Below are positions 10,520 to 63,420 of a stretch of 64,000 nt of DNA, piece after piece. Position 1 is the first letter of the stretch; each line of letters begins with the position of its first letter. The DNA comes from Daucus carota subsp. sativus (Eukaryota > Streptophyta > Magnoliopsida > Apiales > Apiaceae). The stretch covers positions 9,045,135 to 9,109,134 of the forward strand of contig NC_030385.2 in NCBI RefSeq assembly GCF_001625215.2. The letters run 5' to 3'. The notes beneath the pieces are model-generated. The model saw nothing but the letters and a program-made list of their open reading frames with translations, did not search any database and was not told where the DNA came from. The position numbers and the translations under genes are program-made.

Positions 10520-10549
10520 CCCGTGCCTTGCACGGGCTATTATGCTAGT
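10520..10549 (+). repeat. Helitron 3' terminal hairpin and CTAGT end
   Basis: The inverted repeat cccgtgc/gcacggg with a 3-base loop is followed by CTAGT. The same 17-base hairpin recurs at 47472-47488, also upstream of CTAGT, so the two elements belong to one Helitron family. Confidence 0.8.
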
Positions 10550-45735: not shown

Positions 45736-47501
45736 TCTACTATTATATTACGACCATCTCCAACCCGAAAAACTCTTAGCTAAAATTGTCTATATGGCAT
45801 ATAGGTGACATCTAGATGACATTTATAGAGATTATCTACAAATTATAAAACTTCAAACCCTCTATCCTTTAGCAAAAAAATATAGTTGATTATATTTGTC
45901 GAACCAAATGAAGCCTTTAGGTATACTGTAATTTTAGACAAGCACAATTATAAATAATCCCGTTGGAGCATATATATGTCACCTTAAAAAAAATTTAGAT
46001 AATTAATTTAGCCAGCCATTATACATATAGATGCTCTACTAAATACTAATAGCCTAACACGGTGCTAGTTGAGCAAGAAAAAGGTTGAGACCTTTTTATC
46101 AACTGAAAAGATTTTTTTGACCCGCTAGATTGAGATGAAAAGAGTGAGAAGTGAAGGTAGCTGAAAACAAATGAACTTTCACTTGTAAATTGCATCCCAC
46201 CTTTGGAATTAAAATTTGAAGTAAAATTATGTTATAATTACATTTTTATTTGCTTTCATGTCTTCGAAAAACTCATAAACAACGACAGTGAAAATTATAT
46301 TATATAATTTTAATTCCTTTTCACTAAAGTGTGGGGAGCAGGACGTCACGGAGTCTCCGGCTGTGTTTCTTTTTTGCCGCGCAAAGACTGGGTCGGCATG
46401 GGTGAATCAATAGCGACCTCCATGATTATGAGACAATTAAATCCACGTTACACGAAATTAGTTGAGATATCTAAATCCAAGTCCGAACTAGCTCAGTTCC
46501 ACGTCGCCCCAGCCGGGTCAAAACTCCAATGTAAGCCTTTACACTGCAGACACTATACAGTCAATACCCAACTCTCACCTTCTCCGACTCTTCGCCTGAT
46601 TTTACAATCGTAACTATCCGACTATCAGAAACAGTCATTTCAATTCGTGAATGTTATGAATCCGATATAGCTTACATATCAAATTCTAAATTTTTGTCAG
46701 AAGTTTGAGAATCAGGTTTCGAGTAGGTGACCCAGAGAAGTTTCGTATATTTATATGTATCAGGATCATTATGGATGAACATATGAATTCCATGATTGTT
46801 CCAGGTAATTGCACGCCCCTTTTCAATTTTTTTCTTTTATTTTGTTTGTTTACCTCCTGGTTTGTGTGTTCTTATCAAAGTCTGGATTTTTGTTTGTCAA
46901 ATTTGTAACCTGTAATATTTTAGGGTTTAATGAATTAATTTAATTAGTGGAAATTGGAAATTTATTAATGTAAATTAGTGTTTAGTGTAATTTTGTTCTT
47001 GGGCGAGTTAGAATTCTCTGTTTTGTAAAAAACAGGTTCGAATTTTGTAATCTTTATACATCTACATAGCCTCCTTCTCTAAAGTTCCTTATAGCTGATT
47101 TTAAATCTTAAAATAAAAAGTGTAAACAATTGACCTTTGCAACTTGGATAGCAATGTATTATTCATATAATAGGTTCATGAATATTAAAATAAAAATTGG
47201 ATATCTCTTTGATCTACATTCGCCTTTCTTAGTATTTGATACCATATACGCATAGCCAGTTGAGCAACATGCATGCGAAACCTAAATACCACCAATTTTT
47301 GTTGTTTTTGGCCTCAAAGTTCTCACAAATATTTCACGTTGCAGAGCTAAACCATAGTATCACTTTACCTTCTTTTTTTCATTTATAAATGATGTATATT
47401 TGTCTAAGCCTATGGATAGCTAACTCCCGAATAGAAATTTAAAAAATTAATTCATAGGACTAGGAACAACACCCGTGCCTTGCACGGGTTTTAGGGCTAG
47501 T
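45736..47501 (+). mobile_element. Putative short non-autonomous Helitron
   Basis: The 3' end has the same hairpin as the element ending at 10549 (cccgtgccttgcacggg, 47472-47488), then CTAGT at 47497-47501 followed by T. The proposed 5' end TCTACTATTATATTACG follows an A inside a short (atct)n run, so its exact base is uncertain. The interior contains an unassigned 94-residue frame (46329-46613) and no known gene. Confidence 0.5.
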
Positions 47502-49585
47502 TATTATAAATATAATGCTGCAACATGAATTTTGGTAAGCCAATTAAATCGTGTCAAATTATAGTCTTATCCTTTCTTATTTATTTATCTTAATCTATAA
47601 ATAGATAAATACTCCTCCCTTTTTAGTTGGATGATTACTATCACTGCCCTTCTTCAGCCTTCTAATTACGTTTCTTGCCATTAAATTTCAATTTTTCTTT
47701 TTCAAGGCGCACGTGTACTGCCATCCAGCACGTGTTTTTGTTTCCAAATCACTGACGCGTGCTACATTTTGCTTTAATATGCTGAGAAATGGCGGGTTGA
47801 ACTGCTGGGTAATGTACACACTGCTGGATAATGCTTATATTCAAATACAAGTCAATGTTATGTCCTTCTAATCTCCCAAAACACTATGTTTGCATTTTGA
47901 ATTTGAATTTGAAAAAGAAAGAGCCCATTTTGCTCTGCATTCTTTCAAGGCGATACAGTGATTATTTACCCTTGAGCTCCACAAATTCATGGACGATGTA
48001 AGTTTCTAATGTTAGTTTTGATTCTGCTCCACATGTTATCTTCCTGGCATGATTTTTTTTTTTGGAATATGCTCTTATACACAAATTTCCCATGTCTATG
48101 TTAAGTATTTCAGATGGAAGAGGGATGTCCTCTACCGTCTGTTGCTGCTTCTTCAAACAGGACTCGAAAGGGTGAGAGATTTATTTTGAATTTTGCTTGA
48201 ATTTCTGATGTCCATCATCTGTTTGATTTAATTACAAAGTTAGCCCAGAGAGATTCACTAATATGGTCTAAGTTTGATGACTAATTATTGTTGTTCGATT
48301 GTTTCAGGTTTATTTTGTTATGATTTGAAGATCTTTAAGTGTTTGGGAAGAAAGTTTGCATATTTGTTGCTTATGAGTGAGATTGGTTTTTTGTCTCAGT
48401 ATTACTCATAAGATGTTTGATAGATAGTCGGAAAGATGTTTAGGTAATATTTGCAGGCTTGTGATATTTTCTTTCTCTAATTTTTGAATTTGTTTCCATA
48501 CTCTCTAATCCTGCATTTTATTTTGATTTTGTTTCTTGATTAAGTTACTAAAAGTTTATGGTTGGGATATGTTTATTCATTCTTAATCTTGAGTCAAAAT
48601 TGCTATGTAGTCATTATGATATTAGGCTAGCCAACATATAGCAAGATGAATGGGATGGTGCATCAGCCTCAAATTATTCTGTATTATGGTTTAAAGAATC
48701 ATAGTTACCATACTTGAAACTTGCCCTTATCAGATACAGTACTTGCTACCTCTACCGAAAGAAGCTTGAATGGTGTAACAATTTTTCTTTACTTGAGGAA
48801 AGCTTCTGACATGATGAAAGTACTTTTCTGGAGAGACAGAAGGTAGTAAACTCCTACTCTCATCACTGTCAATTAAGTTTGCGTCAGATTTGTAGTGTAT
48901 TCCGGGCAGACCACAATCTATGCTCACAAAGCCTGATAGAATTTAAACAATATAAGACATGTAGTTAAGTATATATAAACATGTGTTTGCTAAGTGTTTG
49001 TAGTACATTTTGGAAAGATTTAAGCCTGGTTCTTGTGCATGACAAGCACGACTCGATAAAATGAATATCTGAGAACAAGTGCAAATAGTAATAAAGCTGC
49101 AGTAATTTGATAACATCTCTTTCTCGCTATATAATCAATTTCTGTAAATAAATGAAGTGTTTCATATCCATAATATGGTAGTTCAACACTTAAGCACACA
49201 TGTATTTTTTCCAATTTTTAAGATTAAAAATATAAAATAGATAAAATTTCCGACCCACAATATGGTTAAGTAGTTGAGTAGTTGATATGAAGACTTTGCT
49301 GGGGGGTAAAATGGTGGCTATCCTTTCACATTAAGCATAAGGTGAAATCTGCAGTACTATTGTTGTCCTAATAAAAGCTCTTAATTTATCTTTTTCTTAT
49401 TACATGTGCGTTTCATTTAGCGGGATGCCCAGTAGATTATTACACATGAATTCCGGCCAAATCACTCATTTTTCACTCATTTATTGTGCCAGCTATAACA
49501 GTTTATCAGCATTCACAGATGTAGTACAACTGGCAACTAAACATTTTCTGATGACAAATTTACATATAATTATTACATTTACCAG
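47502..49585. other. Start of the exon-mosaic region, no assignable gene
   Basis: Contains exon-like pieces with plausible splice sites (for example after cag at about 48114) whose product I cannot identify. TCTATAAATAGATAAATAC at 47594 after an A could be a Helitron 5' end or a TATA box. Confidence 0.35.
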
Positions 49586-50110
49586 GGGAGATGATAATTG
49601 GCCCATCAAAGGTTCTCTTCATAAATGAAACCTCCAATGGCTTAGATAGTTCAAGCACCTTTCAGATTGTTAAATGTCTCCAGCAGTTGACACACATAAC
49701 AGAATCAACCACTCTGATTTCACTTCTTCAGCCAGCACCGGAGACATTTGATTTGTTTGACGACATTATCTTGATGTCTGAGGGACCGACTGTATACCAC
49801 AGGCCTCGTGATAATGTTATACAGTTCTTCGAGAAGTGTGGTTTCTGATGTCCAGCAAGGAAAGGCGTTGCTGACTTCCTGCAAGAAGTGTGTTAGTTAT
49901 TACAATTGAGAAATTCGCTTTCATGCTTAAAATTGGTTGTGTCGCAGTAATTATTCTTTTGCCATAATACTTATACTGCAATGTCAACTTCGACAGTCAC
50001 ATCTCTGCAGGTAATATCTGAGAAGGATCAAGCACCATATTGGCACCCTGATAATCAACCTATTTATGTCAGTGTGAAGGAGTTTGCAAGAAAATTAAGG
50101 AATCCAGTTT
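49586..50110 (+). pseudogene. ABCG/PDR-type ABC transporter exon fragment
   Basis: After a splice acceptor (accag) the frame reads [20 protein letters not shown], then [35 protein letters not shown] and FFEKCGF. It stops where CPARKGVADFLQEV should follow, and a later piece reads VISEKDQAPYWHPDNQP. This is the Walker B/D-loop/H-loop part of the first nucleotide-binding domain of a full-size ABCG transporter. The Walker B Asp (normally LFMDE) is Asn here (LFINE) and the frame has a stop (TGA in CGF*CPA), so it is non-functional. The second half is repeated in the tandem duplication at 50253. Confidence 0.88.
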
Positions 50111-50754
50111 AGGACAGAATTTGCACGAAGATCTCTTTCGGAATACTGAAACGGATGTGATCCAGATTCTTTAGTTAATTGCTGACTGTTTTTTGTATAT
50201 TTTTTCCGTTATGTGTATTTATGGACTCTTTCATTCTTTGTGCTTTGATTGAGTTTGACGACATTATCTTGATGTCTGAGGGACCGACTGTATACCACGG
50301 GCCTCGTGATAATGTTATACAGTTCTTCGAGAAGTGTGGTTTCTGATGTCCAGCAAGGAAAGGCATTGCTGACTTCCTGCAAGAAGCGTGTTAGTTATTA
50401 CAACTGAGAAATTCGCTTTCATGCTTAAAATTGGTTGTGTCGCAGTAATTATTCTTTTGCCATAGTACTTATACTGCAATGTCAACTTCGACAGTCACAT
50501 ATCTGCAGGTAATATCTGAGAAGGATCAAGCACAATATTGGCACCCTGATAATCAACCTATTTATGTCAGTGTGAAGGAGTTTGCAAGAAAATTAAGGAA
50601 TCCAGTTTAGGACAGAATTTGCACGAAGATCTCTTTCGGAATATTGAAACGGATGTGATCCAGATTCTTTAGGTAATTGCTGACTGTTTTTTGTATATTT
50701 TTTCCGTTATCTGTATTAATGGACTCTTTCATTCTTTGTGCTTTGATTGAGTTT
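49755..50754 (+). repeat. About 500-bp tandem duplication within the ABC fragment
   Basis: Copies at about 49755-50252 and 50253-50754 (both beginning gtttgacgacattatcttga) are over 97% identical by eye. Differences include ccacaggcc/ccacgggcc and an atctgc/atatgc change. Both share the same in-frame stop, so the duplication happened after gene death. Confidence 0.88.
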
Positions 50755-51181
50755 CTATTTTGATTTTATACTTTCTAGCGAGCAATGTTGATAATGATTT
50801 TATAAACTATATTAGGATGAAAGTAAGGTCCAGACAATGTTGCCGTTGTCAAATAAGTATGCTCTGCATCCATGGCGTCTCACACTCGGATTATTATAAA
50901 GGAAGAAATGCAAAAATAATGATAGTAGGTATACACAAGTACCTGCTAAGCGTAAAGGGTATGATTAGTATAAAGTCCCTGATTTACGAAAGGGTTATAT
51001 TTTATGTTGTGAGATCTGATTTGATTGTTCTGTAATGTGGAATTGTACTTTTCAGGCTTTTGCAAATGTATTGACAACTGTATTGAAGCTGGTGAGCTGA
51101 TCAGCGCTCCTAAACCTGGTAGTATGATAGTATCAACACTTAAGGGGCTGCGATTGTTGAACTCAATGTGGAGGGGATGGT

Positions 51182-51762
51182 GAGGTCATTAAGTTGGCTG
51201 TCGCAAAAGCATGGAAATGTTTTGGCCGCATTGATGCTTAGGTCAATAATGCTAGAATAAGAGGTAATACTACTTGACAGTAGTAATGGTTATGATAAGT
51301 TAATTATGTCAGTAGTATGTATCATATCTGATCAGAATTTCTAAATAAAGTGTGAATTTGTACATTTATCTCTTCAGATTGTATTTTATAAACTCCTGTT
51401 TTGCCCGTGTGTACACAATGTTTGCACATAAAACTACCAAGAGATATATACTTCTAGAAAAAAATAACTAATAAGTGACTAATTTCTACAAATAAGGAAT
51501 GTTAAACACTTATAATATCGTTTTGTAGTTCTTATTTATGATTGTTATTTAATGTATTGATTATATTTGCATAACTCAGGTGGAACGAAATCTTCATTAT
51601 ATTTAAGTGTAGAAGAATGGAACAACGTGGTGAGAACCAACTTAACAGGATCATGGCTGGTGTCCAAGTATGTTGGATTACACATGGTCGAAGTAGTTCA
51701 AGAAGGCTGCATCATTAACATATCTTCTTCTGCTGGAAATGATACATGCCTTGAGGCTGTAC
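51182..51762 (+). pseudogene. Short-chain dehydrogenase/reductase exon fragments
   Basis: The first piece (51182-51262) reads EVIKLAVAKAWKCFGRIDA, then a stop, then VNNARIRG. This is the SDR NNAG region with Gly changed to Arg. After an intron-like gap, 51579 to about 51745 reads SLYLSVEEWNNVVRTNLTGS, then WLVSKYVGLHM and IINISSSAG, the segment up to the catalytic-Ser strand. The Rossmann start and the YxxxK site are missing. It resembles the 3-oxoacyl-ACP-reductase-like SDRs of plants. It joins in frame to the next fragment. Confidence 0.82.
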
Positions 51763-52473
51763 CTATTCCAAAATTAAGTCATGTCGGAGACTCTTCAGAT
51801 CCTCTCGAATTCATAAGGGAACTACACAAAACGATGGACAGAAAAAAGAAATCATCAGCTGTTTATATGACCGCCAGCTTAATAAAGTGTGTCGGAAAAT
51901 TTAGAGGCCCTGAGGTACATACTATTATATTGCAAAGAAACAAAAAATTACATGCTATGAGAAATCACAAGATATATATGAGTTCAGTGTTAAAATTCTG
52001 TGTGTGTTTGTGTGTGCACGTTCCTGATCAGGTTGCAGCTAAGCTCATTCATAGCACAGTGAAGAATTCAAGTATAGCACTTTCGAATCTAATTGGAGCA
52101 GTGGAATACAAAATCATCCTGTTAAAGGCTTCTACCTCACAGTGGCTGGTGTTCCTGTGGTAACTTGCTAACACTCTTCTCTAATGAGTAATAGTGATAA
52201 TAATTCCTGTAAGAATCTAAGCTTGCCAGGAACTTTCCATCCTAAAAGATAAGAAATCTTTAGAAGAATCTGTATATATATTAAGAAATGATAAATACAC
52301 TAAAACCTAAAACATTGATGGGTTTGCAGAGCACTGGCTTTGCGAGTGTTAGTTATATAGGGAAGCTGAGGGTTGCAATTGCTTCAGAGAAAGGCCACAT
52401 CGATGCAGATAAATTCAAGTCTTACATTCTTGAGGCTTTCTATATCATTTGTAAAATTATTGCTGATGTCTAA
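51746..52473 (+). pseudogene. Wax synthase/diacylglycerol acyltransferase (WSD) C-terminal fragment
   Basis: Pieces read DPLEFIRELHKTMDRKKKSS and LIKCVGKFRGPE. After a GT-AG-like gap come VAAKLIHSTVKNSSIALSNL and IGAVE. Further down, 52328-52473 reads SYIGKLRVAIASEKGHIDAD, then KFKSYILEAFYIICKIIADV and a stop. This matches the C-terminal (DUF1298) part of plant WSD bifunctional acyltransferases. The N-terminal HHxxxDG domain is absent. Frameshifts separate the KGFYLTVAGVP-like stretch (about 52125-52155, read in another frame) from the preceding exon. Confidence 0.72.
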
Positions 52474-52500
52474 ATGTGTTTCAGTGAAATTTATATAGAG

Positions 52501-53817
52501 TTAATTGCAAAACGCAACCCCCCCAGGATATCCGAAAAGGCATTTTAGACCAATACTTTAAATAATTGCACTATGCACCCTGTTGGTTAATTTGGCGCCT
52601 CATTTTGCACCCTTTCCGTTAATTTTGACTGTTAAGGTTAAAAGTCTCAGGGGTAGTTTGGGAAATTTAAAAAAATTAATTTTAACCGGATCCTTATTTA
52701 ATTTTTTTGACCCTCTAAATGATATTTTTTGAAAAATCTTAAAGAACGAAAGTTGTAGAGAACGAAAAGATCCTTTTAAAACAATAAAATTCAAAAATAT
52801 TGAAATCCTTTTATCAGTTTGCATTTTTTTTTAATTACAAAATTTTGCACTCACACGAGTAGCCTGGAGTCGGGATATGCTATTCAAATATGGCCTGAAG
52901 GCTGGGTATGCTTTTCAGAGATGATGTTAAGAATTGTTGCTGCCTTTTTTAATGCAGAATGAATTTGGTCAGAGCAATACACAACTAAGCTGCCAATTTT
53001 TTCATCCCATATTGGCTTAACTTTTGATATCTTGCAACAGCAAGTTTACATATGATGGATTCACAAGTGGTCCCCTCCAACACACCGCCACCTCCACCAG
53101 GAAAAAGGAAAGATTTAGGAAGTCAAAGAATTTGTCCAACCCAATCCACAAGTATGTTGATCATTTACTCTCATAGGCTAATGTCCATCTTCTAAGTCTT
53201 GGTTGATTCTCATCTGAAAAAAACAAACATAAAACATTGGGTTATAAACTGGTTTAATGAATCAATCATGTATGTTGCAGGTTATAAACTGGTTTCTCCT
53301 AATAAAAGGGAATGCTCTGTTAATGTTGACTCTGTTATGCGTAATATTTTGTCTAATGAGAATAGTTCTCTTCAAAGTATTGTCATGCCGACGCATCTTG
53401 ATGGTGGTTTGTGTTCCATCCATCAGACTTTTTTATTTGTTTTATATTCTATTTTTTTTGTAATATCATCTAACAATCATTTGTTAACCAAAAGGAGAGA
53501 CTTTGTTCATTGGTACTGAAAGTGAAAGGTAGACGATGACTTCCTACAAGTTGATGGTAAAATTTTAAATGTTCTTTATATATCTGATAATTATTTGTAA
53601 TTGTTTTGGATGACTTATCTACTTTAATAGATTTTTCTTCCAGATTAAATCGAGCTTTTAGAGGATTTCAATATTAAATAAGAAAAAAACCTAAAACCTG
53701 GTATGCATTCAAGAACCTTACATTTTACGAAAATATGTTCTGCAACAACCTAATTTATTATTCAACTTTGCAGCCCCCAAAGCTATGGCTTTCTTGGTCC
53801 TCCTACCGGCAAATGCC
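52501..53817. other. Mosaic region, unassigned pieces
   Basis: 52501-52640 resembles a transposon end (gcaaaacgcaacccccccagg). A Pro-rich exon-like piece at 53053-53150 ([12 protein letters not shown]) and a piece at 53279-53440 (GYKLVSPNKREC) have plausible acceptors but no family I can name. Confidence 0.35.
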
Positions 53818-54310
53818 TGAAATGCCAGGCAATAATGTGGGTAGAGGAAGAAAGAACAGCAGTTACCAGTCCGAGAACTTTATCAACATGATTGGACATG
53901 TAAGTAACAATCTTTCCAATATTCTACACTCAATAGAATAAAGTAATTAATCATGTAGAATTCCCAACTTGTGGCCTTATGTAAAAAATTTCTCCCAGGT
54001 TTGGGATCTTTGGGGAGAATCGAATGTCTTGGAAATAGTTGATCCGGCGCTTGGGAATACACATGAATATGATACTGAAATCCTTAGATGTATCCATATT
54101 GCGGTACTGTGCGTGCAAGAATCTGCTGCTGCAAGACCAAGCATGTCGGAAGTAGTGTTTATGTCATGCAACGAAATGAGTCTTCAACCTCCAGGCCAGG
54201 CTGCATTCCTGTTGAGAACAGCGAATAGAGGTGTCACAAACACGAGTTCTGGTAGTGTTGGAGGTGTTTCTGTTAATGACTATACAATTAGTACAGTTGA
54301 AGGTCACTAA
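53818..54310 (+). pseudogene. S-domain (G-type lectin) receptor kinase C-terminal fragment
   Basis: A short exon ends GRKNSSYQSENFINMIGH (to 53899). The final exon (about 54000-54310) reads VWDLWGESNVLEIVDPALGN, then CIHIAVLCVQESAAARPSMS and EVVFM, and ends VNDYTISTVEGH plus stop. This is the end of kinase subdomain XI and the C-tail of an S-domain receptor-like kinase; the conserved Arg (ARPSMS) is present. The extracellular domain, membrane segment and catalytic lobe are absent nearby. It is therefore a captured 3' end, although its last exon is intact. Confidence 0.85.
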
Positions 54311-54936
54311 ATGATACATATTTTCTGATTTTGCACTAAGAATATGCCTGCTTTTGTAGTCGGCTGCTGGCAGCTGCTGATCTTACTCCTGAACGGCATG
54401 ATATTTATTCTAAAAATTAGAGCTCTTCTCTTTGCTGCACTTCCACAGGTATCCCATAGCACCCCACAGGCTTGATTTTGATTAATTCAACTGTTATTTT
54501 TTTTTCCTGACATATGCATTTTTTGGTTTCAATGGTAATAATAATAATAATGATAATAAGAAATAAGAAATATATCTGCATTAAAATCATACTGTGTATA
54601 GATTGATAATGTGATTTTAATTGCAGGAACTGCTGGTGTGTGGAGAATTTCAGCACTTAATGAGGCAGGAGGATGGAAGGATAGGACTACTGTCGAGGAT
54701 ATGGATTTGGCTGTCCGCGCAACCCTCAAAGGATGGAAATACGTTTTTGTTTGAAAATATTCAGGTACTTATTTTAGATTGTATTCAAATTTCAACAACA
54801 AAGAAATTGAAAAGAGAGATGCTAATTGCATTGAGTTATTGGTAACTCAGGTAAAAAGTGAGCTTCCGAGTACTTTCAAAGTCTTCCGGTATCAACAACA
54901 TAGATGGTCTTGTGGTCCAGCTAATCTCTTAAAAAA

Positions 54937-55002
54937 ATGGCCGTCTGGTAAGGCAACGGGTTTTGGTCCCGGTATTCGGAGGTTCGAATCCTTTCGTCCC
55001 AG
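54937..55002 (+). tRNA. Plastid-like tRNA-Gln(UUG) remnant, 5' end missing
   Basis: The D-arm region (tggccgtctggtaaggcaac), anticodon loop (gggttttggtcccg, TTG anticodon) and T arm (ggaggttcgaatcctttcgt) match the form of chloroplast trnQ-UUG. The 5' half of the acceptor stem is replaced by an A run, and the 3' half (cgtcccag) remains. Without a pairing acceptor stem it is probably inert. It replaces the expected continuation of the CSLA exon after CGPANL. Confidence 0.72.
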
Positions 55003-55440
55003 GTCGAAATTGCAACAAACAAGGTAACATATTCTATGCAGACATGTTATCATTTATTCTTTTTTGAGTTTGTATATTCTAAAAATAGTTGAAAAATCAA
55101 AAAAGCAGGCAGACATTTAGGTACTCTGTAATTCGAAATTTTGTTGTCTGTTACAGAAAGTGACTTTTTGGAAGAAGCTATATCTGCTCTACAATTTCTT
55201 CTTTGTAAGAAAAGTTGTGGCCCATGTTGTCACTTTTACCCTCTACTGCGTCGCTTTGCCACTGACCTGTCTGGTTTCTGAAGTTGAAGTTCCTAAATGG
55301 GCAGTCATTTACATTCCATGTACTATAACTATCCTCAATGCTGTTGGAATTCCAAGGTCTTCTGCTCTCATGATAAAATTTGATCATATTGATGATGATT
55401 AACGATCCATACCATACTTCAATTGTTTGGATCAGTAAAA

Positions 55441-55540
55441 ATGTTATTCTCATTTTGCTTAATTATGTTGCAGATAATAAATATAGGTATGAGAATAATT
55501 ATGTTATTTTCATTTTGCTTAATTATGTTGCAGATAATAG
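55441..55540 (+). repeat. 60-bp tandem duplication with a repeated splice-acceptor-like end
   Basis: The segment beginning atgttatt and containing cattttgcttaattatgttg recurs 60 bases later. Each copy ends in a ttgcag acceptor-like sequence. Confidence 0.75.
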
Positions 55541-55942
55541 TTTTACTTTGGGTTTTGTTGTAAGGAAGAGTCAATGAGTAGGTTGTCACCGAAAATTTAG
55601 GAGATGCTTTGAAGCCTAAAGCTTCTAATACTGTCCCTCTTCTTAGTAGTGCCCCTGTAAAAAAACCTAGCTCAAAAATATGGGGAAGGTACTTTTGTTC
55701 TTTTTCTGATTTATTGCTTAAACTGAACAAGATCTACAATCCAATAAGTCTATAATATAAGCTTTTTGCAAACAAATTATATATATCAAACTATAACAAC
55801 AGTTTTTTTTGTGTTGCAGAGTTAACGGGCTAGAGTTGACTAGACTGAGATCACAGAGAAACTCATGGCTCAAACACTGTAACTAGACTGCGAACACAGA
55901 GAAACTCAGGGCTCAGACGATCCAGAAATTTGTTTGAGCTCC

Positions 55943-56200
55943 GGAGATGCGAAAGCTATGCCAATTATGGGACTGGGATTAGGAGTTCCTGATCTAACTC
56001 CAGAAGTTATGAATAATACGAAGAAGGTTGTGGTTGGAGCGATTGAGCTTGGATACAGGATATCATATCTGTTTGGACAGCAATGTAAGAGTGCCAAAGT
56101 CCCCGGCCTTACAAAATCAATAATTGTCAGTAATTTAAGTTGCAAGGAGATTGCTGATGTTCTGGCATTTGCCAAGATTCCTTCTGCAATCAATCAAGTA
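55943..56200 (+). pseudogene. Aldo-keto reductase fragments
   Basis: The first piece reads AMPIMGLGLGVPDLTPEVMN, then KKVVVGAIELGYR, the N-terminal strand and helix of the AKR barrel. A few dozen bases later comes GLTKSIIVSNLSCKEIADVL, then AFAKIPSAINQV, the mid-barrel GVSNF region (here IVSNL). The Asp-Tyr-Lys-His catalytic section between them is missing, so two distant exons have been fused. Resembles plant NADPH-dependent AKR4-type reductases. Confidence 0.85.
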
Positions 56201-56610
56201 AGCTTGCTTCCATATCATAGTGTAAATTCCATTAAATTCCACTTACACCTTTGGTGATGTATCTTACTTGAGCTATTGATAAGGCTTGCTAAGATCAATT
56301 GAATCAGAATCCTTGCTATAAATAAATTGAAGTTTTCGGAAAAAGTTATCACCGAAATAAATCCCCAATGCAAACAGTGGTCTGAATTCTTAAAGAGTCT
56401 TAGGAACTCCACTTCATACTGTGCTATCGGATTTAGTAATAGTTCAATTCTTTTCATAACTGAAGTTTGTAGGCTGTTGATGTTGAAACATGTTGCTATT
56501 ATTCTCCTCAAAAGAAGTATACAGCTACTGCCAAGACAAATTTATGACTAATAATTTTTTGTTAGGAAATGATCTACAGCCTAAGAGGCCGTGCAAAATC
56601 AATTGTTTAG

Positions 56611-56862
56611 GACAAGGTTCCTAAGGATCCTAACAAGCCTAAGAGGCCTGCAACTGCTTTTTTCATTTTCATGTACTTGAGTTTTCACCATTGCTATCCA
56701 GCTTTCTGTTTACTGTTCTTTTGATGTGTATGGTTCAAGTCAACTTGTGCTTGCTGCAGGGAGACTTTTCGAGCTGAGTTTAAGGAAAATAATCCTGGAA
56801 ATGCAAATGGAAATGCAAACGAGTCTGTTGATTCAAATCCCAGTGTTGTCATTTTAGGTATT
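56611..56862 (+). pseudogene. HMG-box (HMGB-type) fragment
   Basis: Exon 1 (56611 to about 56672) reads DKVPKDPNKPKRPATAFFIF. A GT-AG intron follows, and exon 2 (from 56761) continues METFRAEFKENNPGN. This is the start of an HMG box of plant HMGB chromatin proteins (NKPKRPxxAFFVFMEEFR). The remaining two helices are not found. A near-duplicate of the cctaagaggcc words at 56580-56650 suggests local rearrangement. Confidence 0.85.
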
Positions 56863-58303
56863 TTTAATTCTTTTTGTGGCTATTTTTTTTATTCTTTAAC
56901 TGCAGGCCTTATCTAATTGAGTTGATAGTCTAATGGATTTTATCAATTTAAATGTGACATGTTTTTGAACATCCATCAGTGATGAAGAACCATAAAGTGA
57001 TAGCCTTTTAAAAGAAAAAAAAAACAGAGAAAGCTTGTGCCTTTGATATTTCCACAATGAAGTTTAGATACTGCAGCAAGAATGTAGTGAAATCCCAGAA
57101 AGCTTTCTTTCTGACAGAAGTCGTGTAAGAAAATTTTAAAACTGAATAAGAGGAATTGCTTACCTCCGTTAATTTCTAAAGTTTTATAATAGACAGAGCT
57201 AGCCCAGATGTCCAATGTGATTAAGGATACTTTGAAATTATTATTGGTGTCTTTGTTTGGTACTTTAAGTAATTGATTTCTTATTTGCAGTTTTTAATGG
57301 GAGGAAAAGCTAGACATCATGCATCAGTTTTTGACAAGTACCGGCTCAAATAAACGGTTAGCTTTTGACAGTTTTAGTTGGTGTTGCATTTTGCTCAGAA
57401 GATACAAAAACTTGCATATGCGTATGCGTCATTGTTTTTCTGCCCATGTTTAGTGGTGCTAAATACCAAACTTGATATAATGCCAGTATCTCTTCTTATA
57501 TATAAAGTTTTGACATGGTGATGGTGTTTGTTCGGTCTACAATTTGGGCTCCCAAGTTCCTGCAGCCTTGCAGGTGGTGATGGTATATAGCTAGCATGGG
57601 ATGATTACACCATTTGGGTTCCTCAGATTAAGATGCTAAATTAAGTCCGTCAAGGCATTGTTCAATTCGTCAAGTTTTAGTTCAGTAGTTATATTCTCTA
57701 ATTTATCAGATCTTTTTGTTATTTACTTCAGGCTGTTGCAACAAAAGGCCAAGAGACCAATGTGGTGATAACTAAAAACAACTGAGGAAGTATATATATA
57801 ATAATATACGGTATATATCATCTTAATGATTTTATAATAATTTTTTGAAAAAATGATTTCTTTAATAGTTATCTACTACATCAGTCTATATTTAACGGAT
57901 ATTTAAATTTTTAACACAATAATCGAGTTATGAAAAAATATTAATCATTTTTATTATATAAATTCTTAAATTAAAGAATTTCAATTTTAAAATTTTTACA
58001 TAATAGAATTTAACATATATAGCGTAAATTTATAAAATATCGATTTTTTTTTAAAAGATGTTGGTTGAGAAGCACGAAAAGTTCAGTTTTAGGCTTTTAG
58101 CCAGGTACATATCGCAAAGAGAAATGCATATTTTGAAAACAAATTGGGCTGGGCTGATTGAAAACAAAATGGACAAATTGAACTTGGCTTTCTAAAATAT
58201 TGGTTGGTGATCTATCTTGCTTTTATATGAAAAACAGTAAAGTTATCGGCCACTCGAATCAGGAAGTGCAGATTAAACTTTTTTTCTTATCAATTGTAAC
58301 ATA
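56863..58303. other. Mosaic region 3' part, unassigned
   Basis: Two short exon-like pieces (57290-57350 and 57732-57785, the latter ending in a stop) could not be assigned. The remainder is AT-rich. Confidence 0.35.
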
Positions 58304-58567
58304 CTCCGTCCCATTTATATGACCTTTATTTCTTTTTGGAACGTCCCAAAAAATGAACTTATAATACTTACTCCACTACCTCTATATTTTATACTCTCTT
58401 TTTATTAAGTAATCACTATTACACCCACTACTTTCGTCCATTATCTCCAATCTATTATTAAATATTGATAGGTCCCACCACTTTACCCATTTTTCAACTA
58501 AATTTAATATTTTTTTCTTAATCTCCGTGAATGTTAAACCAGCTCACTCTTCTTGGGACGGAGGAAG
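58304..58567. mobile_element. Stowaway-like MITE (264 bp)
   Basis: Left end CTCCGTCCCATTTATATGA, right end tcttgggacggaggaag. TA on both sides. Confidence 0.82.
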
Positions 58568-58752
58568 TATACTTCTTGATATCAAAATCACCTTGGAATT
58601 TAATTTATATAATTTTACATAATATTATTAAAAAAACAAACTACACGTAATTTATATAAAATCTACAAAATCTAATTTATCCCTAATACTATTAACAATA
58701 ATTTATATATAATATTAAATTATTCGAGAAATAAAATTTTTTAAAAGTTTAA

Positions 58753-58779
58753 GCTCGCGGCAGCGGGCACAATCCTAGT
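58753..58779 (+). repeat. Helitron-type 3' terminus
   Basis: The hairpin gctcgc/gcgggc (one wobble pair) is followed after a short spacer by CTAGT (58775-58779) and T. The stem differs from the one at 10520 and 47472, so this is a different family. It is the natural right edge of the exon mosaic. The left edge is not proven; 47594 is a candidate. Confidence 0.6.
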
Positions 58780-59110
58780 TACATATATTCCTCGATCCCT
58801 GAACCCTTCTTCTTCCCTGTACCATTCACTCTGCAAAATATGGTTTGTGAACCATTTCTTAATGGTCATCCATCATTTTGTGCTTTGCGGGACTCAAAAT
58901 TGTATCCTTCCTCATCTGGCGATTAGCATAGTAAAAGATATTTAATTTCTTTTTTACAAAGCAAGACTGGATTTTGATTGTGAAATTTTATATTGGCTTG
59001 ATTATGAAATTTTATCCGAGTTCTTGGTCTTGAGATGGGCTGCTGGTATTTTTCAACACCTTTTCCTTCTTGGGATTGTAACTTTATGATCTTGTTTTTC
59101 TTGTCCAAAA

Positions 59111-59883
59111 GCTGGTGGATCTGACAGAGTCGGTGTTGAAACAATGTGAAACAAGAGAGAAGCTTCAAAAAAAGCTTACAAAATTATATGATTATCCCAA
59201 GTATGATGCTCCATTTAGGGAAGGTACAAGTTTTTCTATTTCCATAACACTGGTCTTCAAGCTTAAAAAGTCCTCTATATTCAGGTACATCAATTTTTTT
59301 TAATGCTAGCATCTATCTATGCATGTGTGCTCGAAATACACCTAACTAGCTGTTTAACTTGGTACTTAACATCTATCCTGATTTCTGAATGCTATGTAAT
59401 ATTTTGTTAATTGACTATATAGCAATATTTTGTTTAATTGACTATATAGCAATATTTGTGATTCTTAATATATTATTATTTTCAATATTTTTTACTCAAA
59501 ACTAAAAACTTCTTATTGATTATCTATATATGCTCTAGTTCTTTACAGTGTTTTATGCTAGTCTGGATGGACAACTAGAGGTTTTACTTGATCCTAGTGA
59601 ACTCAGCGAGGATGGAAAGTAGCATTAAGTGTATATGCAGTAATCAAAGATGCTAAATAATTGGCATAGGCTCTCATTTTCTGCCATGGGTATGTAGTTT
59701 CATTGAGTGTTCTGTACAAAATAGAAATTGCAATTACCATAGGCATTTGGTACTATTTTGTTAATGATATGTTTGCTTTGTTACAGGTCAAGTTCTCAGA
59801 CATAAACTGGACCGATGAGCAAAGGCTTTTTCTATTGTCGTTTCCCAGCTCCCAAGTAAGCCGAAGATTTAAAATTCACTTTT
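59111..59883 (+). pseudogene. Prolyl oligopeptidase fragment, upstream part
   Basis: Three exon pieces: LVDLTESVLKQCETREKLQK and YPKYDAPFREG (59111 to about 59226), VFYASLDGQLEVLLDPSELS (about 59552-59620), and VKFSDINWTD (from 59787). They match the N-terminal catalytic-cap/beta-propeller start of plant prolyl oligopeptidase (S9A), which cleaves proline-containing peptides in the cytosol. In the third piece two bases are missing compared with the copy at 63421 (gatgagcaaagg against gatgatagcgaagg), which breaks the frame. Confidence 0.85.
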
Positions 59884-60493: not shown

Positions 60494-63139
60494 TTAGAAT
60501 AAATATTCTTGGAAATCTGGTACACTAGGAAGAGACTTTAATCGTAGCGGAATCATATCCCTGTCAGCATTCAATAAAAAAACTCTTAAAAAAGGCAGGC
60601 GCTCCAATGTAAAAGCTCTTAAAGAAGGCAGAGCTCCGTCATCAACTTGAAGTTCAAACGGACCACCACTGTCGGGTTGTATTCTTAAGAATTGTAGACA
60701 CGGAAACACATCTGCACTACAAACCATTTTGTCTCCACAGTTCATTAACCAAAGGGATGTAAGATTTGACAAACTCCCCGGAATGGGCATCGGATCTTCT
60801 GTGGAAGTGGTAACTGATAGTGTTAAATCAGTAATTGAATCTGGTAGAAAATTCAGTTCTGCTAGATCTTTTATCTTACACAACAACACCAACTTGTTGA
60901 GATGTTTGCAAGACGAAAGTGGTTGCATTGTTGAAATAACACCACCCACTCCCATTCCCAGTAGGAGGACTAATGTTCTGAGACTTGTTAAATTTGCCAT
61001 AGACTCCAAACTATATTCTTCTTCTTCTTCTTCATCATCACCATATTCTTCTGAAATTACAAGTGTATGGAGATTGGTCCAATTATTGGTTTCAATATGG
61101 CACCATTCCTTATACATTATTTCACTTATGGTTTGGAGCTTTGTCTGGTCGCTGCCAATATTCAAATTCCCTTCAATTTCATTAAAGAATATATGCCTTA
61201 GTTCCTTAAGCTCACATATCTCTTTTGGAAATACGTAACTATTATGCATATAGACTGATCCATGCAAAGTTTGTAACCTTTTCAATTTGCCTATACTTGG
61301 AGGAATCACTAAAGCTTTACCAGAGTAAGGACCACCCATTAAACCCAAGAACTTTAGGAGAACTAAATCTCCTATTTCTTCTGGTATCCCCACTGATTTA
61401 TTCACACTGGTCAAGTCTAGCACTTTGAGATATTGGAATCTTGTGTACATCAACTTTATTTCCTCTACTTGAAGTCTAGCAGTTTTAGTAGTTAGCGCTA
61501 ATGAACGCAAATTTAAATTGCCAGAATTAGGACCAAGTAATTTAAAGTACTCACCAATTCCATTGTAGATTGCATGACGTGTCTGTCCTTGCAACGAACG
61601 TATGGGATTTGGATGATGTTTATTTGAGTCAAAAATTCCCAGTATCTTCTGCTCCCTGGCCTTCTCTATGACAAGATCACGTACAAGATCATGGATCTTG
61701 CACGCCAAAACTTGCCCATCTGCAGTCTGTAATTCTATCTGAATCATATTGCGATTAATAAGCTCATTTACATAATCCTCAGCTACATCCTCCATGTCTA
61801 CTTCATCGTGTTCCTCAACAAATTCCTCTGCAATCCATAACAACTTTAACTTAAAAACTCTGATAGTATGGTCTTCAGGGTATCTTGCAAGGTATAGAAA
61901 ACATTGTCTCATGTTGAAAGACAAGTCATCATAACTCAAATTTAGTAGTTCTTGAATCTCTGAAGACTCACCCTTCAACTTTCTCCAAAGCTGGTCCTTC
62001 ACATCGGACCAAAATTTGTAGGTCCTTTTTTGCAATAATAGCCCACTCAGGATCACGATTGCAAGAGGTAAACCTCCACATTTATCTAACATCTCCTTAC
62101 CTAACATCTCCAGGTTGGGGGTTGGTTTTGCTCTCTTACAGAACAATTGCCAGCTCTCGTCTTTGCTCAAAAAACTTAGTTCATAGACGAAACATGTGTC
62201 TTCTACACCCTCGGCAACTACTTTATTCCGCGTGGTTATAATAATCCTACTTCCGTTTTTCTTGTCAGGAAAAGCATTTTTAATCTTTTTCCAGACCTCT
62301 ACATCCCATATATCATCAATCACCACAAGATAGTGATCACCTTGCAGAAGTATCTTTCGCAGGTGCCGCAACAGCTCTACCTCTTCCATTTTGTTCAACG
62401 AATCTTGTCCATCTACCTCAAAACACTTTATTATCTTCCTCAGAACATGTGTGATGTCATAATCCTCAGAGACACAAACCCAAGCACGACTTTTAAAATG
62501 GCTTAATTCGCTTGAGTGGTACAGCTTACTAGCAAGAGTCGACTTGCCCAGCCCCCCCATTCCGTGAATGGAAATTAATCCAAGGGATGGATCCTCATTA
62601 CCAAGTTTAGCCAACAAAGTCCGAACATCATCCCCAAAACCAACGACATCCTTCTCGTGGTCGAAGGAAGCTGCTCTGAGCAATTTTCTCCTTCTCTTTT
62701 GCACGTTTGGAGTGGCGATGATCATGTCGTTGATATGGTATTCGTCTCGCCTACTCTTGATCCCAATCATTTTTTGCTTCAGGGACTCGATATCCTTACC
62801 GAGATCATAAAGATTGGCTTCTTTCTTGCAGATACAGATAAATCTCCGGATACAGTCCAGAACACCACCTTGCTCATCTGCTGCCTGTTCTTCTCGTTGA
62901 GCGCTAAACCTCTCCAGGATAATAACCGCCTGATTAGCAACATCTTTGACGCTGTCTGTCCATCGACGGATATGATCCTTATCTTGGTGTGCTTCAGCAG
63001 CTCTTACAGAGATAAGCAGGTAGCCTAACTCATCTTTAAGCCACCCTATACCATCTTTCACTCCAATCCTAATGTTTACTTGTTGGGAAACAAATTCATG
63101 AAGTTTTTCGATGGTAAACGATACAGCTGCATCAACCAT
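60494..63139 (-). CDS. CC-NB-ARC-LRR disease resistance-type receptor (CNL)
   Basis: Single uninterrupted exon, 881 residues. Rx-type coiled coil at 1 to about 130. The NB-ARC domain has P-loop GMGGLGKST (193-201), RNBS-A AWVCVSEDYD (219-228), kinase-2 LVVIDDIWD (271-279), RNBS-B GSRIIITTR (296-304) and GLPLA (356-360). RNBS-D is CFLYLARYPED (413-423), and the MHD motif appears as IHD (482-484). LRRs run from about 550 to the end, with an acidic EEEEEE run near 680 encoded by a (TTC)n tract. Cytosolic NLRs of this RPP8/RPP13-like type detect pathogen effectors and trigger hypersensitive defence (family knowledge). The usual EDVID position reads ANQAVIILERF (68-78). All nucleotide-binding motifs are intact. 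Length is normal. Two copies of a prolyl oligopeptidase exon flank it. Frames on the + strand are shadows. Confidence 0.95.
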   Translation of the reverse strand: MVDAAVSFTIEKLHEFVSQQVNIRIGVKDGIGWLKDELGYLLISVRAAEAHQDKDHIRRWTDSVKDVANQAVIILERFSAQREEQAADEQGGVLDCIRRFICICKKEANLYDLGKDIESLKQKMIGIKSRRDEYHINDMIIATPNVQKRRRKLLRAASFDHEKDVVGFGDDVRTLLAKLGNEDPSLGLISIHGMGGLGKSTLASKLYHSSELSHFKSRAWVCVSEDYDITHVLRKIIKCFEVDGQDSLNKMEEVELLRHLRKILLQGDHYLVVIDDIWDVEVWKKIKNAFPDKKNGSRIIITTRNKVVAEGVEDTCFVYELSFLSKDESWQLFCKRAKPTPNLEMLGKEMLDKCGGLPLAIVILSGLLLQKRTYKFWSDVKDQLWRKLKGESSEIQELLNLSYDDLSFNMRQCFLYLARYPEDHTIRVFKLKLLWIAEEFVEEHDEVDMEDVAEDYVNELINRNMIQIELQTADGQVLACKIHDLVRDLVIEKAREQKILGIFDSNKHHPNPIRSLQGQTRHAIYNGIGEYFKLLGPNSGNLNLRSLALTTKTARLQVEEIKLMYTRFQYLKVLDLTSVNKSVGIPEEIGDLVLLKFLGLMGGPYSGKALVIPPSIGKLKRLQTLHGSVYMHNSYVFPKEICELKELRHIFFNEIEGNLNIGSDQTKLQTISEIMYKEWCHIETNNWTNLHTLVISEEYGDDEEEEEEYSLESMANLTSLRTLVLLLGMGVGGVISTMQPLSSCKHLNKLVLLCKIKDLAELNFLPDSITDLTLSVTTSTEDPMPIPGSLSNLTSLWLMNCGDKMVCSADVFPCLQFLRIQPDSGGPFELQVDDGALPSLRAFTLERLPFLRVFLLNADRDMIPLRLKSLPSVPDFQEYLF

Positions 63140-63420
63140 TCTTCCCTGTGGAGTAAAACAACAAACTGTGATTTGTGATATGGCTAAAATGAATTGTGTA
63201 TATAGTAATAAGCTTCCAGGTTAATGGCCCATATATATGATGGTGATGGAGCCTATCTGGAATATAAATGTGACTTGTATTTCACAACTACAGCATTATT
63301 CAATCATAATCCTTGCTTGTAGGCTGTCACTACCTTCTTCTTGTTTAACCTTACAGAATTTATGCTTTACTTCTTTTGTAATGTAACTATTTTATTAATG
63401 ATATGTTTGCTTTGTTACAG

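Follow-up and report, generated by a model that had tools for sequence, protein, structure and literature searches.

The segment from 47594 to 58778 of the window, the 64,000-nucleotide stretch of carrot DNA analysed here (C5:9045135-9109134), is almost certainly one non-autonomous Helitron, presumably mobilised by its family and loaded over several rounds with DNA-level pieces of ~10 host genes. The initial annotation had set the block at 47594-58779, and its 5' TC at 47594 stands, whereas the true end is 58778 and the T at 58779 belongs to the host, as does the A at 47593 on the left. The hairpin plus CTAGT reported near 58753-58779 was found in full, with the T following the terminal CTAG. 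The features of the element are as follows.

47594-58778, plus strand: whole non-autonomous Helitron, 11,185 bp, TC...CTAG, delimited by common termini and empty sites
47594-48315, plus strand: Helitron 5' end and 5' body, from terminus searches and copy alignments
48687-49475, minus strand: malectin-like receptor-kinase piece, antisense; related loci at C6:13.07-13.43 Mb (68-80% identity)
49476-50163, plus strand: ABCG/PDR transporter piece; donor C2:33415736-33416427 (93%)
49747-50754, plus strand: ~498-bp tandem duplication of the ABCG piece, copies 97% alike
51074-51736, plus strand: SDR piece consisting of two partial exons separated by partial intron sequence; donors clustered at C9:10.22-10.26 Mb
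51580-51914, plus strand: chimeric open exon, SDR exon in frame with WSD exon via 21 bp of other sequence
51758-52497, plus strand: 3' part of a WSD (wax ester synthase/DGAT) gene; donor C4:46330697-46331413 (85%)
52489-52847, no strand assigned: one arm of a nested high-copy repeat, from genome matches
52840-53158, minus strand: aromatic/tyrosine decarboxylase piece, antisense, from Pfam, PDB and related loci
53158-53159, no strand assigned: possible composite junction, the left side as in the C7 copy and the right side as in one C1 copy
53678-53841, plus strand: apparent relic of a Helitron RepHel region, from matches near three Helitron_like_N domains
53842-54406, plus strand: 3' part of an S-domain receptor kinase; donor C7:25209017-25209800 (89-93%)
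54503-55842, plus strand: CSLA (cellulose-synthase-like A) exons and introns; donor C5:41097789-41099038 (93% and 84%)
54946-55005, plus strand: 60-bp insert resembling a tRNA, with 3 bp (GTC) duplicated, within one of the captured CSLA exons
55921-56211, plus strand: aldo-keto reductase (AKR) piece; donor cluster C8:32.11-32.17 Mb
56242-56578, plus strand: intron piece of a heat-shock transcription factor (HSF) gene; C2:34798278-34798610 (92%)
56609-56808, plus strand: HMGB exons; nearest gene-like locus C7:40329527-40329757 (80%)
58753-58778, plus strand: 3' hairpin (58753-58768), 6 nt, terminal CTAG (58775-58778)

Searches of the genome (441,086,747 bases, 11 contigs) with both ends, as the initial annotation had proposed, showed that these recur on other contigs. 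The 71 bases around the 3' end were found at 9 places, and the 5' end (47590-47790) gave 16 rows, with 14 candidates scored; both counts include the window. The first 649 bases of the element share 76% identity with C9:25874156-25874800. Paired ends were identified in four sister copies.

C7:29362587-29373341: 10,755 bp, both ends
C3:58234453-58247548, minus strand: 13,096 bp, both ends
C3:36452468-36454098, minus strand: 1,631 bp, both ends
C9 from 43410528: 3' ends at 43418811 and 43419942, 1.1 kb apart

Each of the sisters begins with TC. All five two-ended copies (the window, C7, C9 and two on C3) have an A directly before the TC and a T directly after the 3' end, which is CTAG except for CTAA in the C7 copy and ATAG at the first C9 end.

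The boundaries are further defined by empty sites. When the flanks were joined (73 bases from the left and 102 from the right), 24 rows matched, including the two window halves and partial matches; ten other places were continuous over the junction (at least query 1-130). They exist because the element lies within a dispersed repeat, and the empty sites are thus paralogous rather than allelic. The best four matches span 157-173 bases, and the six further places are weaker or shorter.

C1:26730497-26730669, empty site (87%)
C6:3803530-3803689, empty site (81%)
C4:15803033-15803189, empty site (83%)
C2:12877129-12877298, empty site (81%)

In the three of these four that were aligned, the junction is gap-free and shows no target duplication, so that paralogous copies of the target repeat pass the empty-site check suggested earlier. 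Opposite the A that the window has at 47593, all three have a T, which would be explained equally by a substitution or by a one-base shift of the left limit. Another candidate, beside the copy on C2, was rejected as a complete empty site. Right of the CTAG of this copy, host sequence shares 98.5% identity, for 1.5 kb or more, with a stretch lying 13.8 kb further upstream (C2:42879393 and 42893212), which begins at the same base as the sequence right of the CTAG. The 17.7 kb read contained no 5' end of the C2 element, and therefore this copy supports the 3' boundary only; no left flank matched.

The same evidence bears on whether several nested or abutting Helitrons, each with its own ends, could mimic one mosaic, an alternative that the initial annotation had left standing. 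A hairpin and CTAG end at 47500, which is 93 bp outside the 5' terminus, and the two 3' ends of the C9 sister speak for such an arrangement, but no second 3' end of the scanned form (6-9 bp GC-rich hairpin followed by CTAGT) was found on either strand inside 47594-58778, and the empty sites lack the entire stretch. Nesting is thereby largely refuted and we consider it improbable. With both ends holding, empty sites available and donors on different contigs, the other proposal of the initial annotation, one large transduplicating Helitron, is the one upheld.

The succession of seven gene families on the plus strand is corroborated by Pfam and by donor DNA matches, with a weak donor for HMGB (80% over 200 bp). 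Sense pieces with donor loci comprise all seven families, which span 49476-56808, and the HSF-gene intron. The donor search advised at the outset placed these loci elsewhere in the genome; for the seven families, they are spread over six contigs by genome DNA matches. Among ten window frames, two gave domain matches above the cut-off (SDR, as adh_short, together with WS_DGAT_C; Glyco_trans_2_3), four gave matches below it, each to the expected family (ABC2_membrane_7, WS_DGAT_C, DUF3403 of the S-kinase tail, and Aldo_ket_red), and four gave none, while HMG_box exceeded the cut-off on a 30-aa hand-spliced HMGB piece. Domains were matched in 8 of 10 donor frames and in none of the other two: ABC2_membrane_7, ABC2_membrane, Glycos_transf_2, WS_DGAT_cat and Pkinase, as well as DUF3403 (below cut-off) and HSF_DNA-bind twice, once below cut-off. 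The SDR donor frames were read as well. The ABCG piece carries an in-frame stop, its reading frame ends at 49848, and its tandem duplication has no equivalent of this form in the C7 copy. The SDR-WSD fusion exon keeps an open frame in the window; of its two tandem copies on C7, one is open and the other frameshifted.

Introns of the SDR, CSLA and WSD pieces align to the donors, which on these alignments indicates that capture was from DNA. The AKR segment at 55921-56061 abuts a later exon through an internal deletion that does not fall at splice sites, and together with the kept introns this rules out RNA-mediated capture. A pile of processed pseudogenes (retrocopies) or a patchwork left by non-homologous repair, in either case without a transposon, is accordingly very unlikely: the AKR piece does lack a stretch between two exons, and the tRNA-like insert with its 3-bp duplication does resemble repair filler, but neither explains the donor-aligned introns, the position of the AKR deletion, or a unit with mobile-element ends and sister copies. 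Single junctions may be repair events, though the block as a whole is not. A Pack-MULE or other TIR-type transduplicate can be dismissed with near certainty, for although such elements carry gene pieces in plants too (PMC8903248), the termini here are TC/CTAG with a 3' hairpin, no terminal inverted repeats or target-site duplication were found, and the empty sites show no duplicated target.

The description of the block as a "same-strand mosaic" holds for the seven named families and fails for the element, since eight identified pieces are sense and two are antisense. Both antisense pieces came from a minus-strand control scan, and they rule out strict same-orientation capture. A Malectin_like domain lies in 48733-48942 (minus strand, Pfam E 1.6e-10). 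The decarboxylase piece gave a Pfam match at 52887-53045 (minus strand, E 0.0028, below cut-off), within the very 9 kb to which a single orientation had been ascribed; its PDB matches are tyrosine/aromatic decarboxylases (best E 0.0012), and related loci lie at C9:340449-340740, C1:50026329-50026559 and C2:52900539-52900627. The C7 sister holds the next stretch of the decarboxylase gene, likewise antisense (Pyridoxal_deC, 6.5e-10). In both the malectin-piece scan and that of the C7-sister decarboxylase, the other nine frames were weak (E 0.02 or worse) or without a match. A ratio of 8 to 2 shows no orientation bias (two-sided binomial ~0.11, hand calculation). The estimate of at least seven genes was sound for the seven, and missed the HSF intron and the two antisense pieces. 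This tally covers identified pieces, from 29 of the 123 frames listed in the window and 20 of 81 in the sisters, and therefore further captured pieces may be hidden in the window.

Sister copies carry different parts of this load. The C7 copy aligns to the window from the 5' end through 53158 (main pieces 87-96%, decarboxylase 81%), lacks 47799-48315 and differs at 52498-52810; it is unmatched over 53159-58212, apart from which it matches again near the 3' end (58213-58303 and 58568-58780). A single C1 copy matches 53159-53313 (80%, 155 columns), and both C1 copies match from 55921 onward. The C7 and C1 alignments both end cleanly at 53158/53159, and the decarboxylase gene runs on past 53158 in the C7 copy, which suggests that the state of the window at this junction is derived. 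Sequence upstream of 55921 that by eye resembles the leader of the AKR donors is kept on C1 and lacking in the window. The C2 copy has window 56595-58787 in common (97%), and the HMGB stretch is common to the 13.1-kb C3 and the C9 copies, each with pieces of its own (C9: SEO, 2OG oxygenase, GRAM; C3: a C2 domain). This pattern fits stepwise capture plus the joining of modules, and the element may be composite, the alternative being losses from one fuller ancestor. Against a composite origin, the junction evidence is one 155-column, 80% match to a single C1 copy, and ancestral losses could replace it. It is conceivable, if on balance doubtful, that sister Helitrons exchange multi-gene modules by read-through or template switching, so that mosaics would also grow by the joining of loaded elements. 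Applied to the window, and equally tentative, this would mean that 53158/53159 is where a left module of C7 type, cut within the decarboxylase, met a right module of the C1 kind. If so, one product of the exchange would be the chimeric SDR-WSD exon, still open in two copies.

A genome search for Helitron_like_N (PF14214) gave at least 168 matches (150 of 344 first-look candidates scored). Two of these Rep domains (C9:33025394 and C8:23128817) share their strand with a 5' end of the family and are located 2.96 kb and 3.47 kb inward from it, respectively; these two matches alone tie Rep to the family of the element, in relatives whose 3' ends are unpaired. By hand calculation, ~0.01 Rep/5'-end pairs would be expected by chance within 5 kb downstream of the 14 ends, or ~0.03 if all 344 candidates are real. 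Some members of the family thus probably carry a Rep-helicase, as judged from these positions. Window 53678-53841 has full or partial counterparts (70-81%) located 934-939 bp upstream of three Rep hits, and therefore resembles what remains of a Helitron RepHel region, which we infer to belong to the element's own family.

We infer rolling-circle movement, an order of captures and a joining of two elements along the following lines. Rep-helicase from family members would mobilise the element by rolling-circle ('peel-and-paste') replication, with insertion between A and T and no duplication of the target. Over several rounds, DNA-level pieces of ~10 host genes, exons with introns, would have been gathered. 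Two modules are found in different sisters, one on the left with malectin kinase, ABCG, SDR, WSD and decarboxylase and one on the right with AKR, HSF intron and HMGB; they may have fused at 53158/53159, with the S-kinase/CSLA stretch placed between 53842 and 55842.

The carrot element is of a known type, the gene-capturing Helitron, and is a new, well-documented example of it. Maize offers the best-documented cases of heavy, multi-donor capture by Helitrons; there, according to PMC3288121, helA Helitrons hold 0-12 gene fragments each (mean 3), stepwise capture has been proposed and elements with multiple termini are mentioned. Like helA as portrayed there, the carrot element has several host gene pieces, and homology among same-ended sisters is fragmented; unlike helA, it belongs to another family in another plant, and the joining of two sister modules is suggested. 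Its TC/CTAG ends and 3' hairpin are also those of Helraiser (Helibat), whose hairpin, according to PMC4778049, is a terminator that can be read past, whereupon host DNA lying downstream moves with the element. That read-through was shown with a reconstructed bat element in cell culture. Helitrons of Arabidopsis and rice are of the same class and include some captured genes, with few capture events and averages of 950 and 441 bp vs 4,616 bp in maize (PMC2575219); unlike these, the carrot family resembles that of maize in size and load, the copies read measuring 1.6-13.1 kb. The same 2008 study held that heavy gene capture by Helitrons is possibly uncommon across plants. Helitron gene capture is described in another eudicot, Brassica napus, also (PMC11986588). 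The interest of the carrot element lies in its completeness and in the possible exchange of modules: with matched ends, empty sites, donors traced to several contigs and sisters that differ in load, the family could serve to order captures and to test module recombination between elements.

Further sequences were noted inside and around the element. The repeat at 52489-52847 often occurs elsewhere as adjacent inverted pairs (foldback-like), and is present as a single arm in the window. The 60-bp insert at 54946-55005 is not in the CSLA donor; its Rfam tRNA match scores 28.2 vs a gathering score of 29 (E 0.019), ARAGORN found no tRNA in the window, and we presume a resemblance to plastid trnQ-UUG. 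To the left of the element by 93 bp, window 47471-47500 forms a second Helitron-like plus-strand end, with hairpin ACCCGTGC/GCACGGGT and CTAG, then T; there is an opposite-strand CTAG end at 47460 and a similar plus-strand end at 10548. Just past the 3' end, 59082-59300 contains a prolyl oligopeptidase N-terminal piece (Peptidase_S9_N, 1.1e-06), outside the block as the initial annotation had it, and 1.7 kb to the right of the element lies an open 908-aa gene of the CC-NB-ARC-LRR disease-resistance type (60497-63220, minus strand).
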